A DNA stretch of 64,000 nucleotides from Cellulophaga sp. RHA19 (lineage in GTDB: Bacteria; Bacteroidota; Bacteroidia; Flavobacteriales; Flavobacteriaceae). The stretch is from assembly GCF_002813425.1 (NCBI RefSeq), contig NZ_PHUL01000001.1, forward strand, positions 124,001 to 188,000. Reading direction: 5' to 3'. Of this stretch, positions 7,250 through 56,816 are shown in pieces; positions within the stretch are counted from its first letter, which is position 1, and every line of letters starts with the position of its first letter. The translations under genes and the position numbers were made by a program. The notes below the pieces were generated by a model that saw nothing but the letters and a program-made list of their open reading frames with translations, was not told where the DNA came from and did not search any database.

Positions 7250-8429
7250 TTAACACATCTAAAGGGTTAGACTCATCTATAACTTCTTTTTCTTTTACTG
7301 GGTTTTTATTACTTGCACTAAGCACAATGCCTATTGCTAAACACGTCATCCAGATAGACGTACCACCACTACTAATAAGCGGTAATGTTTGTCCTGTTAC
7401 AGGAAATAACTCTACCGCAACAGCCATATTTATAAATGCCTGAAAAACTATGGGTAAGCCTACACCTACCACTAATAACTTACCAAACACACTTGGGTTA
7501 GCATTTGCTACCACAACTATTCTAAATAACAGTAACAGATAAAAAAACATCACCACCAAGCCACCAACTAAACCATATTCTTCTACTATAATAGCATAAA
7601 TAAAATCTGAAGAACTTTGTGGTAAAAAGTTTTTCTGAACACTTTTACCAGAGCCTTTACCAAGAACACCGCCAGATGCAATTGCAATTTTAGCACGCTC
7701 TATTTGGTAATCCTCACTAGTATCTTCGCCATTAAAAAAGTTAGATATTCTATTCTCCCAAGTATCTATTCTATTTTCAAACAAATCCGGAACTGCCTTT
7801 GCAACCAAAATAAATAATGCCAAACAAGCAATACCCGTACCAACGATTCCTAATAAATATTTAATAGGATAACCACCTAAAAAAGTTAGAGTAAGTACCA
7901 TAAAAAAAATAATTGCTGCTGTAGAAAAGTTAGCTGGTAAAATTAAAACTATCACCAAAAAAACAGGAATCCACAACGGAAGTACACTCTCTTTAAAAGT
8001 AACTACTTTATCTTTAATTTTTGCTAAATAACGCGCCACATATATCATTAACACAACTGCTGCTAATGTAGATGTCTGAAACGAAAAGCCCACAAACGGA
8101 ATGTTTATCCACCTACTAGCATTTGCCCCACCAATTGTTTTTCCTTGAGCTAACGTATACCCCAAAAGCAACAATACTATTGGCATAGCAATTATAGATA
8201 AGCCTTTAAAAAAGTGCATTGGTATTTTATGCACGCCGTAAATTATACCAAAGCCAAGCATTAATAAAAAAGCGTGCTTAACAAGGTGACTTACAGCCGT
8301 ACCATTACCAACCACATACACCAAATTACTACTTGCGCTGTAAACTGGCAAAAACGAAAATAATGCCAATAGCGCAACTATGCCCCAAATAGCCTTATCT
8401 CCTTTTATATTTTTAAAATAACTTAACAC
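7236..8429 (-). CDS. ftsW: SEDS-family peptidoglycan polymerase FtsW
   Basis: This is an integral membrane protein of the SEDS family, which polymerises lipid II into septal glycan together with its partner FtsI. About ten hydrophobic segments span residues 14-380. Recognisable pieces are GGANASRWI near residue 110, an [20 protein letters not shown] loop near residue 243 and the closing [12 protein letters not shown] motif near residue 350. The length of 397 is typical. The start codon is GTG. It sits between murD and murG, the standard place in this cluster. Confidence 0.95.
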
Positions 8430-43380: not shown

Positions 43381-44463
43381 TTATCCTTTAATAATTTTTT
43401 CTTGGTGGTTTATAGACTCTTGGTGTATTGCTTTAAACATTTTTAAAACAAACTCTTCACTTAAGCCTTTAGACTCACCTTCTAAAATCATAGCTCCTAA
43501 AATTTCGTTCCATCTTGTAGATTGCAAAACAGCAACGTTTTTTTCTTTTTTAAGCGCTCCAATTCCGTCAGAAATTTTCATTCTTTTTCCTAAAGTTTCA
43601 ATTAACTGTGCATCAATAACATCTATTTGTGCACGTAAATTACTTAAATCTTTATTGTATTCCGCTTCAGGGTCTGATTCTTTTCTTATTTTTAAATCGC
43701 GCATAATTTGCACTAATTTTTCTGGTGTTACTTGTTGTGCAGCATCACTCCATGCATTATCTGGATCAAAGTGAGTTTCTACCATTAATCCATCAAAATT
43801 AAGATCTAATGCTGTTTGTGACACATCAAAAATCATATCTCTGTTTCCTGTAATATGAGACGGATCGTTAATTAATGGTAAATCTGGAAATCTATTTTTA
43901 AACTCAATAGCCAGTTGCCATTCTGGTATGTTTCTATATTTTGTTTTCTCGTAAGTAGAAAAACCTCTGTGTATTGCACCTAAATTTTTAATTCCCGCAG
44001 TATGTAAACGCTCTATACCACCTAACCACAAAGATAAGTCTGGGTTAATTGGGTTTTTTACCAATACAATTTTATCTGTACCAGCTAAAGCATCTGCAAT
44101 TTCTTGCATGATAAACGGACTTACAGATGTACGTGCACCAATCCATAATAAATCTATATCATGTTCTAATGCCAATTCTACGTGGGCTCTATTTGCAACC
44201 TCCGTACAGGTTTTCATTCCTGTTTCTTCTTTTACTTTTTGCAACCACTTAAGACCTAACAAGCCTACACCTTCAAAATTCCCTGGACGAGTTCTTGGCT
44301 TCCAAATACCTGCTCTATAATAACTTACATCGGTATCTTTTAATTGATGAGCAATTTTTAAAACTTGCTCTTCTGTTTCAGCACTACACGGCCCTGCTAT
44401 TACTAGTGGATGATCTAGTTTCATGTCATCCAACCATGTTCTCATTTCTTTTGAATTTTCCAT
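43381..44463 (-). CDS. bifunctional 3-deoxy-7-phosphoheptulonate synthase / chorismate mutase
   Basis: Two enzymes of aromatic amino acid synthesis are fused. The N-terminal DAHP synthase (about 1-260, type I-beta/KDO8P-synthase-like) shows LVIAGPCSAETEEQ near 20, AGIWKPRTRPGNFEGVG near 51, VKNPINPDLSLW near 140 and NDPSHITGNRD near 200. The C-terminal AroQ-type chorismate mutase (about 270-360) shows LRAQIDVIDAQLIETLGKRM and a closing HQESINHQEKI helix. Length is 360. It is the last gene of the pheA-aminotransferase-tyrA operon. As pheA here lacks a mutase domain, this fusion supplies it. Confidence 0.95.
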   Translation of the reverse strand: MENSKEMRTWLDDMKLDHPLVIAGPCSAETEEQVLKIAHQLKDTDVSYYRAGIWKPRTRPGNFEGVGLLGLKWLQKVKEETGMKTCTEVANRAHVELALEHDIDLLWIGARTSVSPFIMQEIADALAGTDKIVLVKNPINPDLSLWLGGIERLHTAGIKNLGAIHRGFSTYEKTKYRNIPEWQLAIEFKNRFPDLPLINDPSHITGNRDMIFDVSQTALDLNFDGLMVETHFDPDNAWSDAAQQVTPEKLVQIMRDLKIRKESDPEAEYNKDLSNLRAQIDVIDAQLIETLGKRMKISDGIGALKKEKNVAVLQSTRWNEILGAMILEGESKGLSEEFVLKMFKAIHQESINHQEKIIKG

Positions 44464-44469
44464 CTTTAC

Positions 44470-45330
44470 TTAATTTTTATTCTGGGGTATTCCGTTTAAT
44501 ATTTCTTTTATTTTGTTTGCGTTTTCCATTTCATCATAAATACCTTTAAAATTGTCTTCTTCAATCATTTTTTTAAAGGCATTTAAATTCTGAATATATT
44601 CTTCTAATGTTTCTAAAACATTGGTTTTATTCTGCTTAAAAATTGGCGTCCACATTGCTGGCGAACTTTTTGCCAAACGTACTGTACTCTCAAATCCACT
44701 GCCCGCCATATCAAATATATCACGTTCATTTTTTTCTTTCTCAATAACCGTCTTTCCTAACATAAAAGAGCTAATATGAGATAAATGAGACACGTATGCT
44801 ATGTGTTTATCATGCGCTTCTACATTCATATATCTTATACGCATTCCCATTTCTCTAAAAAGATCTAAAGCCTTTTCCTGCAACTTAAATGCTGTTTTTT
44901 CTACTTCACAAATAATATTTGTTTTGCCTTTAAACAGGTTTTCTATAGCTGCAGATGGTCCAGAAAATTCTGTTCCTGCAATTGGGTGGCACGCAATAAA
45001 ATTTCTTCTTTTAGGATGATTTTCTACTTGTTTACAAATTAAACCTTTAGTAGAACCCGCATCTAAAACAATAGCATCATCAGTAATTGCATCTAATATT
45101 TTTGGCAATTCTACCACCATAACATCTACAGGTATACTCACAATTACAACATCTGCCAATTCCAAGTCTTGATAACTTGCCTTTTGGTCTATTACACCTA
45201 AAGACAATGCTTCTTCTACGTGTGCATCATTAATATCTACACCATAAATTTTAGCATCAGCATTTATCCTTTTAATATCCTTGGCCATTGAGCCACCTAT
45301 TAATCCTATGCCAATTATAAATACGTTCAT
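44470..45330 (-). CDS. tyrA: prephenate dehydrogenase
   Basis: TyrA oxidises prephenate to 4-hydroxyphenylpyruvate for tyrosine synthesis. The N-terminal NAD-binding loop IIGIGLIGGSMA is at residues 5-16; CHPIAGTEFSGP near 118 and SHLSHISSFMLG near 184 carry substrate-binding His residues. Length is 286, the plain monofunctional form with no mutase or ACT domain. It lies 6 bp before the DAHP synthase/mutase gene and 70 bp after the aminotransferase. Confidence 0.95.
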   Translation of the reverse strand: MNVFIIGIGLIGGSMAKDIKRINADAKIYGVDINDAHVEEALSLGVIDQKASYQDLELADVVIVSIPVDVMVVELPKILDAITDDAIVLDAGSTKGLICKQVENHPKRRNFIACHPIAGTEFSGPSAAIENLFKGKTNIICEVEKTAFKLQEKALDLFREMGMRIRYMNVEAHDKHIAYVSHLSHISSFMLGKTVIEKEKNERDIFDMAGSGFESTVRLAKSSPAMWTPIFKQNKTNVLETLEEYIQNLNAFKKMIEEDNFKGIYDEMENANKIKEILNGIPQNKN

Positions 45331-45400: not shown

Positions 45401-46546
45401 TTATTTAAATCTACTTATTGCTTCTCTTATTTTTTCTTGTGTAACACATAAAGAAAAGCGTATATAACCTTCTCCATTACTACCAAAAATTGTTCCTGGC
45501 GTTATAAATACATCTTTACTATATAACACGTCATCTATAAACTCTTCTGATGAAACACTACCGGCTGGCAACTTTGCCCATACAAACATTCCTACTGCAT
45601 TTTTATCATAAGTACAATTTAATTTATCTGCTAACTGAAAAATTAAATCTCTACGGGTAGCGTATATTTTATTTAATTCTGCAAACCAATCTTTACTACT
45701 TTTTAATGCTGCAATAGCTCCTTTTTGTATGCCGTAAAACATACCAGAATCCATATTACTTTTTACTTTTAATACCGCGTTTAAATGTTCTGCGCTACCC
45801 AAAACCATACCCACACGCCAGCCTGCCATATTAAAAGTTTTACTAAGCGAGTTTAATTCTAAAGCACAATCTTTAGCATTTTCTATACTTAATATACTTG
45901 TTGGCGCATTGTTTAAAACAAAACTATATGGATTGTCATTTACCAATAAAATATTGTTTTTTAAAGCAAATGCAACTAGCTTCTGCAACTGTTCTTTTGT
46001 TGCAACAGCACCTGTAGGCATATGCGGGTAACATACCCACATTATTTTAACTTTAGATAAGTCTTGTTTCCCTAAGGCTTCTAAATCTGGAAACCAATTG
46101 TTATCTGCAACCAAATCATAACACTTAGGCTCTGCTCCTACTAAATTTGTTACAGATGTATATGTTGGGTAACCCGGATTAGGAATTAAAGCCGCATCAC
46201 CAACATTTAAAAAAGCCATACTAATGTGCAAAATACCTTCTTTAGAACCCATTAAAGGTAAAATTTCGGTTAACGGGTCTGCGGTAACATTAAAATTAGC
46301 CTTATAAAAAGATGCCATACTTTCTCTTAACTCTGGTAAGCCTTGGTAACTTTGGTATTGGTGTGCGCCTGCATCTTCTACTGCATTTTTTATAGCATCT
46401 ACCACTATTGTAGAAGGTGCTAAATCTGGACTACCAATTCCCATATTTATTATAGGTTTACCGTCTGCCATTAAACCACGTACTTCTCTAAGTTTTTTAG
46501 AAAAATAGTATTCTTGTATTTGTTCTAGTCTATCTGCAGTTTTCAT
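45401..46546 (-). CDS. pyridoxal-phosphate aminotransferase, probably aromatic
   Basis: A fold-type I class I/II aminotransferase of 381 residues. The PLP lysine is in NSLSKTFNMAGWRVGM near residue 235; NPGYPTYTS near 122, the NDNPYS segment near 203 and a C-terminal IRFSLCV (substrate-carboxylate Arg) are present. By sequence alone it could be aspartate, aromatic or LL-diaminopimelate aminotransferase; its place between pheA and tyrA, and under the aromatic attenuator, makes phenylpyruvate/hydroxyphenylpyruvate the likely substrates. The ATG overlaps the pheA stop by 4 bp. Confidence 0.9.
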   Translation of the reverse strand: MKTADRLEQIQEYYFSKKLREVRGLMADGKPIINMGIGSPDLAPSTIVVDAIKNAVEDAGAHQYQSYQGLPELRESMASFYKANFNVTADPLTEILPLMGSKEGILHISMAFLNVGDAALIPNPGYPTYTSVTNLVGAEPKCYDLVADNNWFPDLEALGKQDLSKVKIMWVCYPHMPTGAVATKEQLQKLVAFALKNNILLVNDNPYSFVLNNAPTSILSIENAKDCALELNSLSKTFNMAGWRVGMVLGSAEHLNAVLKVKSNMDSGMFYGIQKGAIAALKSSKDWFAELNKIYATRRDLIFQLADKLNCTYDKNAVGMFVWAKLPAGSVSSEEFIDDVLYSKDVFITPGTIFGSNGEGYIRFSLCVTQEKIREAISRFK

Positions 46547-47370
46547 TCTCTTCCGTTTTTGTATTCACCTAAAATTTTAAATTCTTCTGCCATTATCTCT
46601 AATAATGCTTTGGCTTTTTTATAGTCTTTATACTTTAAAAAAGTAACATCTACAAAGAACGAATACTTCCAAGGTTGTTCTATTACTGGTAGTGATTGTA
46701 TTTTTGTTAAGTTTAGGTTACAATCACTCATCACATTTAAAACGGCTGCCAAACTCCCACGCTTATGATCTAAAACAAAACGTAATGATGCCTTATTTAT
46801 CTCTTCCTCTGGCAACTCTTTATTTTCTTTTTTAAGAATGATAAAACGGGTTGCATTATTAGAAATAGTTTGTATTTCTGATGCTACAACTTCTAAATTG
46901 TATAATTCTGATGCAACTTTTGGCGCAATAGCCGCAATACCTTTTAAATTATCTTTTTCTATACGCTGTGCAGTTTCTGCAGTATCTACAGATTCTACCA
47001 ACTTAATGTGCGAGTACGCTTTTAAAAAATCTTTACACTGCAATAAAGCCATTGGGTGCGAGTGCACTTCTTTTATATCTTCAATTTTTTGACCTTTTAA
47101 AGCCATTAAATGATGATGAATATTAAGATAGTGCTCACCAATAATATGTAAATCGTTATTGTAAACAAGCGCATAATTAGGAATTATAGAACCCGCAATA
47201 GAGTTTTCTATAGCCATAACCGCCTTGTCTGCGTAACCAGTCATTAGTTGGTGAATTAACTCATCAAAAGAAAGACATTCTACCAACTGCACATCCTCAC
47301 CAAAAAACTCATTAGCTACTTGGTGGTGATTAGACCCCTTTATACCTTGTATTGCAATTTTTAATGCCAT
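46543..47370 (-). CDS. pheA: prephenate dehydratase
   Basis: PheA converts prephenate to phenylpyruvate for phenylalanine synthesis. The catalytic domain (about 1-180) shows IAIQGIKGSNHHQVANEFF at the start, AVMAIENSIAGSI near 50, HSHPMALLQC near 103 and the NNATRFIIL motif near 170 containing the active Thr. An ACT regulatory domain (about 195-270) follows. The motif ESRP is here replaced by the KIQSLPVIEQPW segment (GALxxxLxxF, ESRP positions weakened), so feedback inhibition may be altered. Length is 275, with no chorismate mutase domain. It is the first structural gene behind the leader-peptide attenuator. Confidence 0.95.
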   Translation of the reverse strand: MALKIAIQGIKGSNHHQVANEFFGEDVQLVECLSFDELIHQLMTGYADKAVMAIENSIAGSIIPNYALVYNNDLHIIGEHYLNIHHHLMALKGQKIEDIKEVHSHPMALLQCKDFLKAYSHIKLVESVDTAETAQRIEKDNLKGIAAIAPKVASELYNLEVVASEIQTISNNATRFIILKKENKELPEEEINKASLRFVLDHKRGSLAAVLNVMSDCNLNLTKIQSLPVIEQPWKYSFFVDVTFLKYKDYKKAKALLEIMAEEFKILGEYKNGRE

Positions 47371-47405: not shown

Positions 47406-47434
47406 AAAAAAAGTCCCGTTATATACGGGACTTT
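47406..47434 (-). terminator. attenuator terminator of the aromatic operon
   Basis: On the minus strand AAAGTCCCGT pairs with ACGGGACTTT (10 bp; plus positions 47425-47434 and 47410-47419) around a 5-nt loop, followed by a run of seven T. It lies 26 bp after the leader-peptide stop and 36 bp before pheA. The left arm AGTCCCG can instead pair with CGGGACT inside the leader (47467-47473), which would prevent the terminator from forming. Confidence 0.92.
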
Positions 47435-47459
47435 AATTTATATCTATATTTAAAATATA

Positions 47460-47531
47460 CTACAACAGTCCCGCACCTCTCTTAAAAAAGAAGTAAAAAT
47501 AAAAACCGTTCCAGAAATATCTTGTATTCAT
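47460..47531 (-). CDS. Phe/Tyr/Trp-rich leader peptide of the aromatic operon
   Basis: A 23-codon ORF from ATG (47531) to TAG (47460), too short for normal gene calls. Residues 4-7 are R-Y-F-W and residues 10-16 are F-Y-F-Y-F-F-F, so 10 of 23 codons are aromatic (6 Phe, 3 Tyr, 1 Trp). Codons 20-22 (GCG GGA CTG) contain CGGGACT, the antiterminator strand. A ribosome stalled on uncharged tRNA-Phe or tRNA-Tyr would leave that strand free; one that reaches the stop would cover it and let the terminator at 47406-47434 form. No strong Shine-Dalgarno is seen, as is usual in this phylum. Confidence 0.93.
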   Translation of the reverse strand: MNTRYFWNGFYFYFFFKRGAGLL

Positions 47532-47534
47532 TAT

Positions 47535-47759
47535 TCTTGTATTATACGGCTAAGGTAATTATTAAATTTAAAAAACAAATTTTATTATTATTTTTTTTCA
47601 CTCTTCTCACATTATTTAATATAACCATAATTTTTTTAACAAATAATTAAGATATCAATTTTTTAAAACGTTAAAATTCCGTTAATCGTAATTGGCTTAA
47701 CACCAAAAAAAGGCTTATAATTCCTATTCCTTTTAAAAACAAAATCCACTTATTTACGT
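47535..47759. other. intergenic region between the aromatic operon and gldA
   Basis: About 225 bp of very AT-rich sequence between divergent transcripts. I see no ORF with support. The promoter for the aromatic leader should lie here on the minus strand (TATAATAC at 47544-47551 is one candidate for an AT-rich -7 region), but there is no exact TAnnTTTG match for it. Confidence 0.4.
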
Positions 47760-56696: not shown

Positions 56697-56816
56697 TGAG
56701 TTATCTGCCGTGTTGTTTTATAACAACGTAGTAGAATGTAGCACCTTCTTTAAATAAGAATAAAGGGTTGCTAAGGTTTCATAGGGTCTAATCCCTCCAC
56801 CTTTCTTGATAACGTT
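56697..56816 (-). ncRNA. SAM-I (S-box) riboswitch
   Basis: The minus strand contains the S-box core: P1 GTTATC (56808-56813) pairing with GATAAC (56700-56705), AAAGGTGGAGGGA, the ACCCTATGAAACCTTAGCAACC segment and GGTGCTACATTC, in the standard order and spacing, plus the P4 hairpin GTTGTT/AACAAC. S-adenosylmethionine binding should stabilise P1 and lower expression of metH1-metH2-metF. It is the regulatory head of the methionine operon, about 200 bp before the metH1 ATG. Confidence 0.95.

Follow-up and report, generated by a model that had tools for sequence, protein, structure and literature searches.

A predicted phenylalanine and tyrosine attenuator ahead of the pheA operon in Cellulophaga sp. 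RHA19 and other Bacteroidota

Attenuation by leader peptides is taught from enteric bacteria, and the closest described system is the Escherichia coli type of pheA leader (Rfam RF01859, Phe_leader), whose peptide contains phenylalanine and no tyrosine. Two or more regulatory amino acids are known for the ilv and thr leaders, and some Phe/Tyr leaders before pheA of Bacteroidota may reportedly be listed by Vitreschak et al. (2004). The element upstream of pheA in Cellulophaga sp. RHA19 shares with the E. coli type the aromatic peptide, the alternative hairpins, the terminator, and the logic, and it resembles the ilv and thr leaders in that several amino acids would be sensed by one leader. In contrast to E. 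coli, the RHA19-type leader mixes phenylalanine and tyrosine in front of an operon that makes both, and the antiterminator arm is located within the leader ORF or directly behind it. The mechanism itself is classical. At this locus RF01859 scored 29.5 bits against a gathering cut-off of 55, and none of 99 genomes of the order reached this cut-off, which E. coli does. Bacteroid-trp RNA (RF01692) is also a Bacteroidota element with a short leader peptide and a terminator but differs in the amino acid, tryptophan, and in the gene; it gave no match at the pheA site at E-values up to 10. In the Rfam scan of the window (the whole stretch of 64 kb that was analysed) only SAM riboswitch and tRNA models reached their cut-offs, and T-box riboswitches were not matched at either a strict or a relaxed threshold. 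The SAM riboswitch lies at 56698-56815 on the minus strand (71 bits) with putative methionine-synthase-like and methylenetetrahydrofolate-reductase-like ORFs downstream of it on the same strand. As far as the available text of PMC2494555 goes, T-boxes are absent from seven Bacteroidetes/Chlorobi genomes.

According to the accessible part of PMC2965389, its authors knew in 2010 of no leader-peptide system shown outside Proteobacteria and Actinobacteria, ermC aside, and themselves added a case from Firmicutes. For Flavobacterium psychrophilum, the excerpts of PMC9723704 report a structured 5' element ahead of pheA that is conserved in other genera, together with hints of attenuation by leader peptides for amino-acid operons in general. 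Gene and family are the same as here. In those excerpts, however, the element is not described as a Phe/Tyr leader, and neither an anatomy nor a spread beyond the family is given. The preliminary description of the RHA19 locus had called the element unannotated, which is too strong for the structured pheA element as such but fits its anatomy. Compared to PMC9723704, the anatomy, the reading as a Phe and Tyr leader, the joint variation of three arms, the rule on spacing, and the occurrence outside the family appear to be new, to the extent that its available text can tell. The literature covered, which includes the accessible parts of PMC9723704, PMC2864571, PMC6429828, PMC7366714, PMC2965389, and PMC2494555, yielded no Phe/Tyr leader before pheA in Bacteroidota, and a pairing of Phe and Tyr in one leader was not met in this search.

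Parts of the leader and the operon behind it

The source genome comprises 3.93 Mb, and its pheA shares 97% identity with the Cellulophaga omnivescoria gene. Four genes follow the leader on the minus strand with intergenic gaps of at most 70 nt. These are pheA, a prephenate dehydratase with an ACT domain (46543..47370; Pfam PDT, 2.8e-58; the ACT domain has 23 bits and is thus below the Pfam cut-off of 27), a class I/II aminotransferase (45401..46546; Aminotran_1_2, 4.7e-61), tyrA, a prephenate dehydrogenase (44470..45330; PDH_N and PDH_C), and a DAHP synthase fused to a chorismate mutase (43381..44463; DAHP_synth_1 and CM_2). The operon content that had been proposed from the letters therefore agrees with the Pfam matches, and by this gene content the end products are both Phe and Tyr.

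All parts of the predicted switch are on the minus strand as well. The leader peptide ORF (47460..47531) has 23 codons plus a TAG, starts with ATG, and reads MNTRYFWNGFYFYFFFKRGAGLL; it is conserved in 91 aligned loci. Ten of its 23 codons are aromatic (Tyr5, Phe6, Trp7, Phe10, Tyr11, Phe12, Tyr13, and Phe14-16), in agreement with the earlier claim of two runs at residues 5-7 and 10-16, so that a short ORF rich in codons for the end products of the operon precedes the genes. Based on the leader translation and on the folding with ribosome positions, aromatic codons 10-16 (FYFYFFF; 47484..47504) are the probable sensing run. Arm 2 (CGGGACT; 47467..47473) lies within codons 20-22 and would be the 5' arm of an antiterminator. 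Its partner, arm 3 (AGTCCCG; 47426..47432), is common to antiterminator and terminator, as judged by the pairing in the aligned rows, and arm 4 (CGGGACT; 47412..47418), the 3' arm of the terminator, is the other partner of arm 3. The second partner of AGTCCCG within leader codons 20-22, as previously described, is indeed found at 47473-47467. Arms 3 and 4 belong to a terminator-like hairpin predicted from the sequence (47410..47434; ten pairs, loop of five), which is followed by a run of seven T (47406..47412) sharing the last base of arm 4. A predicted intrinsic terminator is thus placed between the leader and the first gene, ending 35 nt before the pheA start. Stem and T-run had been recognised before, although the term GC-rich was slightly strong given that only five of the ten pairs are G-C. 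We add arm 1 (AACGGTTTT; codons 8-10; 47502..47510), which pairs with GGGACTGTT in the minimum-energy fold and accompanies the terminator state. The fold of the 141-nt RNA has -38.5 kcal/mol compared to -21.4 +/- 3.0 for shuffles (z -5.7), and none of 200 shuffles was as good. A CTG/TAG extension of the stem of arms 1 and 2, seen in the fold of the own genome, was dropped after a comparison of the rows in which its register was off and its pairing poor.

Upstream of the leader, a candidate -7 element TACCTTAG (TAnnTTnG; 47550..47557, minus strand), a motif found in the clade, is preceded 18 nt upstream by a candidate -33 element TTTG (47576..47579, minus strand). We take TAnnTTnG and TTTG to be the Bacteroidota promoter consensus. 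In 89 of the 91 clade loci, TAnnTTnG is present at a distance of at most 30 nt from the leader ATG, and in 61 it stands exactly 18 nt before this codon, with a background of 4.8% in mononucleotide shuffles. Part of the clade rows have a TTG 17-18 nt upstream of the -7 element, and TTG is absent from the 28 nt upstream that were searched in 30 of 89 rows. The candidate promoter would leave a short 5' untranslated stretch, if the presumed start site is correct.

Conservation in close and distant relatives

The close relatives were taken from the pheA loci of 18 genomes of the genus and the best 80 of 359 relatives (the 80 named loci), and 450 nt upstream of pheA were read per locus. The alignment comprises 91 loci; eight of 99 (L003-L006, L013, L015, L017, and L019) were left out as duplicates of named loci or as the second half of a split gene. 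L053 and L084 were off by one in arm 3 and were re-registered for the pair counts of arms 2:3 and 3:4 and for the ribosome folding, while they were used as aligned in the pair counts of arms 1:2, the covariation of 2:3 and 1:2, and the covariance model. By reading, an ORF with seven to eight F/Y/W per ten codons was found upstream of pheA in all 80 named loci. The strict detector recovered the whole layout in 79 of these (L050 being the miss) and in all 18 genus loci.

Arms 3 and 4 form seven of seven pairs in all 91 rows with L053 and L084 re-registered, and six columns of the T-run are invariant across these rows. Arms 2 and 3 form seven of seven pairs in 67 rows, six in 23, and five in one. 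Several changes affect three arms in concert, with arms 2/3/4 reading CGAGACT/AGTCTCG/CGAGGCT, CAGGACT/AGTCCTG/CAGGACT, or CAGGGCT/AGTCCTG/CAGGACT. Such compensating changes point to a predicted antiterminator that uses the first arm of the terminator and is mutually exclusive with it. Among the 88 distinct rows, 95.3% of the 2:3 cells are paired, and moving the partner by one column reduces the pairing to 50-58%. Changes on both sides of 2:3 were found in five cells of three pairs (shuffle mean 0.7), a cell count reached by none of 500 shuffles. The variation in 2:3 is mostly one-sided and of the G-U type, which is expected because arm 2 also codes. For arms 1:2 all nine pairs are possible in 60 of the 91 rows, eight in 18, and seven in 13, and the covariation is weak: 65 of 500 shuffles match the number of pairs with double changes and five of 500 the number of cells. 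Two distinct relatives, L007 and L023 (identical in locus to L006), have a leader that stops early, the G of the TAG being the first G of arm 2, and GGACTGTTG persists behind the early stop codon in L007 and L006/L023. Arm 2 has thus been kept there although it is no longer coding, which argues for selection on the RNA arm and not on the tail of the peptide.

A covariance model of the clade (R1) has one strong site in the own genome, with 137.2 bits compared to 33.8 for the next. The seven next-best (L101-L107) of the 28 own-genome matches at E <= 10 are not leaders by reading. In the order, R1 matched in 38 of 296 genomes at E <= 1e-3. Of 20 weaker R1 loci (L117-L136), 14 from several families are, by reading, leaders before a pheA-like ORF, L129-L132 are not leaders, and for L122 and L136 the match sequence was absent from the output. 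The distant leaders have new letters in the arms, for example GAGACTTTGT/ATAAAGTCTC and AGCGGGATTTAG/TTAAATCCCGCT. R1 is therefore poor as a census tool, and a layout detector that is blind to the sequence was used instead. It asks for a short ORF with at least five F/Y/W in eight codons, a terminator at most 75 nt away, and at least six contiguous pairs, with at least three G-C and at most two G-U, between the region of the ORF end and the first arm of the terminator. In the 64-kb window it found the pheA site and one unconvincing second match at 8377 (minus strand).

For the wider set, the 450 nt preceding pheA (203 nt only in L181) were taken from 82 genomes that belong to the order, the class, and the phylum, 42 being loci returned by the search and 40 stretches picked by hand from match tables. 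These genomes are not a random sample, and the counts are therefore not phylum frequencies. The second, looser detector found the layout in 57 of the 82 genomes, or in 53 of 78 once the close-clade loci L137, L138, L139, and L146 are removed, two of which have leaders identical to aligned rows. The first detector found it in 45 of the 82 and in none of 1640 shuffles, L176 and L199 being found by the first only, which gives 59 of 82 with either detector. The comparison of pheA upstream regions that the preliminary description had proposed thus speaks for its reading, as leader codons and alternative pairing are kept in the close relatives by compensating arm changes in the 91-locus alignment, and leader and pairing are also kept in distant relatives with quite different letters.

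The second detector gave no match in 25 of the 82 genomes. Neither detector found a leader in family f16 (L185, L187, and L198), whose 0.6-Mb genomes are likely those of endosymbionts. This family keeps pheA, and the attenuator might have been lost in reduced genomes. Four other misses belong to family f5 with a different type of pheA, in three pheA is apparently close behind another gene, and L179, L186, and L192 have no detector match for no apparent reason. L201, L205, L207, L212, L213, and L214 show an aromatic leader and a terminator-like hairpin by eye with pairing below the threshold, and these six were excluded from the match counts. In L201 and L211 the aromatic run contains Cys (TCFCFFFYFY), and the terminator region is odd and does not have the usual AGTCCCG-like stem. 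Eight genomes belong to other classes. The four with a close pheA (42-45% identity) carry the leader, L176 and L177 by a detector and L207 and L213 by eye as mentioned, whereas the four with a distant pheA (34-36% identity) gave no detector match. Among the matches listed, the pheA of these four carriers is closer to that of RHA19 than the pheA of other members of their own families is. Therefore, it could be possible that pheA has been transferred together with its attenuator.

As judged by the presence of tblastn matches only, all 80 named loci contain relatives of the aminotransferase and of tyrA, and 79 contain a DAHP synthase relative. In the 42 search-returned wider loci, the aminotransferase was found in 37, tyrA in 30, and the DAHP synthase in five, these counts being limited by a flank of only 1.5 kb.

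Spacing and ribosome position

The end of the aromatic run is 10 nt from arm 2 in 89 of the 91 clade rows. In the 57 wider leaders this gap is 5-16 nt with a median of 9, and 51 of them are within 7-12 nt, while arm 2 ends anywhere between 24 nt upstream and 13 nt downstream of the last base of the stop codon. Because the search for arm 2 started at most 33 nt before the ORF end, it was repeated with no lower limit; this gave 58 matches, of which 57 are within 5-16 nt (median 9) and one at -34. With a near-constant gap and a varying stop position, the distance that is kept is that between the run and arm 2. A ribosome covers about 10-12 nt beyond its A-site codon. When stalled at the final aromatic codon of the run, it would therefore just spare arm 2.

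The RNA was folded with the front edge of the ribosome assumed 10 nt past the A-site codon. In the own genome, the antiterminator is the best fold even in the complete RNA if the A site is at codons 9-15. At Phe16, a marginal position, it is found only before arm 4 is present, at codon 17 partly so, and from codon 18 onward only the terminator folds. Positions at codons 5-8, which include Trp7, allow 2:3 before arm 4 and result in the terminator in the complete RNA. Edges of 11-13 nt were applied to the own genome only, with codons sampled. Edges 11 and 12 leave codons 9-15 the same, and at edge 13 codon 15 is lost in the complete RNA with codons 9-14 unchanged. In the absence of a ribosome, 2:3 is formed just before arm 4, and 1:2 together with 3:4 only in the complete RNA. 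Altogether 148 leaders were folded (91 clade rows and 57 wider leaders, at least two of which were counted twice). With the ribosome in the run (half or more of the run codons) 2:3 is predicted before arm 4 in 147 of 148 leaders, and with the ribosome at the stop codon in none. For the wider set this outcome is to some extent circular, as the detector demands 2:3 pairing. Together with the kept spacing, these fold states bear out the earlier proposal that arm 2 is covered by a ribosome finishing the leader and free when the ribosome stalls. Once the RNA is complete and at equilibrium, no more than 38 of 148 leaders favour 2:3 over the terminator, again for half or more of the run positions. 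The decision thus needs kinetics and has to be taken while arm 4 is transcribed, and the antiterminator would prevail mainly by forming first, as in the classical model.

The 91 clade leaders contain five to eight Phe and two to four Tyr, and one Trp in 72 and none in 19. The 57 wider leaders contain two to eight Phe, Tyr in all but one, and one Trp in 24 and none in 33. Of the 81 leaders with 23 residues, 15 have Phe or Tyr at position 7. Sensing of Trp as a conserved feature is not supported, given the many leaders without Trp and the terminator formed in the complete RNA after a stall at Trp7. The Trp counts and the folding at Trp7 indicate a Phe/Tyr device in which the Trp codon is optional. 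Of the Phe/Tyr/Trp leader named in the preliminary description, the Phe and Tyr part agrees with the leader composition and the operon products, but the Trp part is not conserved.

Proposed mechanism, alternatives, and meaning

We interpret the element as a ribosome-mediated transcription attenuator of the pheA operon that would sense charged tRNA-Phe and tRNA-Tyr together, and assign this reading, which is built on comparative sequence data, a probability of about 0.94. A short leader RNA would be transcribed and its 23-codon ORF translated at once. If tRNA-Phe and tRNA-Tyr are charged, the ribosome would reach the stop codon and cover arm 2, the 3:4 terminator would form, and transcription would end some 35 nt upstream of pheA. 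With either tRNA in short supply, the ribosome would stall in FYFYFFF with its front edge just short of arm 2, arms 2 and 3 would pair before arm 4 is made, and the polymerase would continue into the operon. When no ribosome is present, arm 1 could sequester arm 2. The model builds on the parts, their conservation, the concerted arm changes, and the near-fixed spacing seen in the alignments, and it predicts translation of the leader, termination at the hairpin, and relief by starvation for Phe or Tyr.

An aromatic ORF might in principle arise by chance, as TTT, TTC, and TAT are frequent in AT-rich sequence, and the hairpin might just be a plain terminator or shared with the divergent gene, its stem being nearly symmetric and terminator-like on the plus strand too. 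However, the tail on the plus strand is only weakly T-rich (AATTTATATC), and the detector found nothing in 1640 dinucleotide shuffles and 82 reverse complements of pheA upstream regions or in 6570 windows of 450 nt from elsewhere in the 80 named loci, most of which must be coding. As the ORF is kept in 80 of 80 named loci, this explanation is refuted by conservation, and its remaining probability is close to negligible. Alternatively, instead of tRNA charge being sensed, free Phe or Tyr might bind to the nascent leader peptide and cause it to arrest its ribosome, in the manner of Trp and TnaC. In favour of this, the peptide is well conserved in the clade of the named loci. Distant leaders, however, are aromatic-rich and have no fixed arrest residue (by eye, without an alignment), deletions of codons within the run are tolerated (L007, L053, L071, and L084) as is the loss of the C-terminus, and the near-fixed gap between run and arm 2 suits stalling at the codons themselves. 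In addition, arrest by the free amino acid would raise and not lower the expression of its own biosynthesis. Altogether, such a sensor is very improbable. The switch could also, or mainly, govern the translation of pheA, because arm 4 and the T-run are beside the start codon in some relatives, the hairpin ending 8-9 nt before the pheA ATG in many rows of Flagellimonas, Allomuricauda, and Muricauda. In other relatives, however, as many as 111 nt separate the end of the hairpin from pheA (L055), and the six invariant T columns in 91 rows are a requirement of a terminator. We see only a small chance for control of translation.

The attenuator of the pheA operon seems not to be the only such leader in RHA19. 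Bacteroid-trp RNA (RF01692) is present at C1:1812725-1812837 on the minus strand (L220) with 65.8 bits at a cut-off of 49, and its leader MKITTNIWWWNNLRQTS contains three consecutive Trp ahead of a 465-residue ORF, which we take for a putative trpE. Another ORF about 170 nt upstream of hisG (L219) encodes MRNKNTHHHHFTPCFQAS with four consecutive His, and a terminator-like hairpin with a CCCG/CGGG stem is located between this ORF and hisG; it is likely a His leader. Given the Trp leader and the His-rich ORF, control by leader peptides looks habitual in this genome and not like a single case.

On a broader scale, a single ancestral Phe and Tyr attenuator might have preceded pheA from an early stage of Bacteroidota on. 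Almost all bases of the switch would have been exchanged repeatedly under an unchanged logic and with a ruler of about 10 nt preserved, two tRNA charges would be pooled such that a shortage of either one opens the operon as a whole, and the element would move together with pheA between classes. We regard this scenario as tentative, at slightly less than even odds. A family that spans the order and class, with its three-arm changes and near-constant spacing, is in any case a natural data set on the evolution of a switch, and it offers a simple handle on the control of aromatic amino acids in a phylum that is important in sea, soil, and gut. By extension, the attenuator would explain the conserved pheA element whose working is left unknown in the accessible part of PMC9723704.
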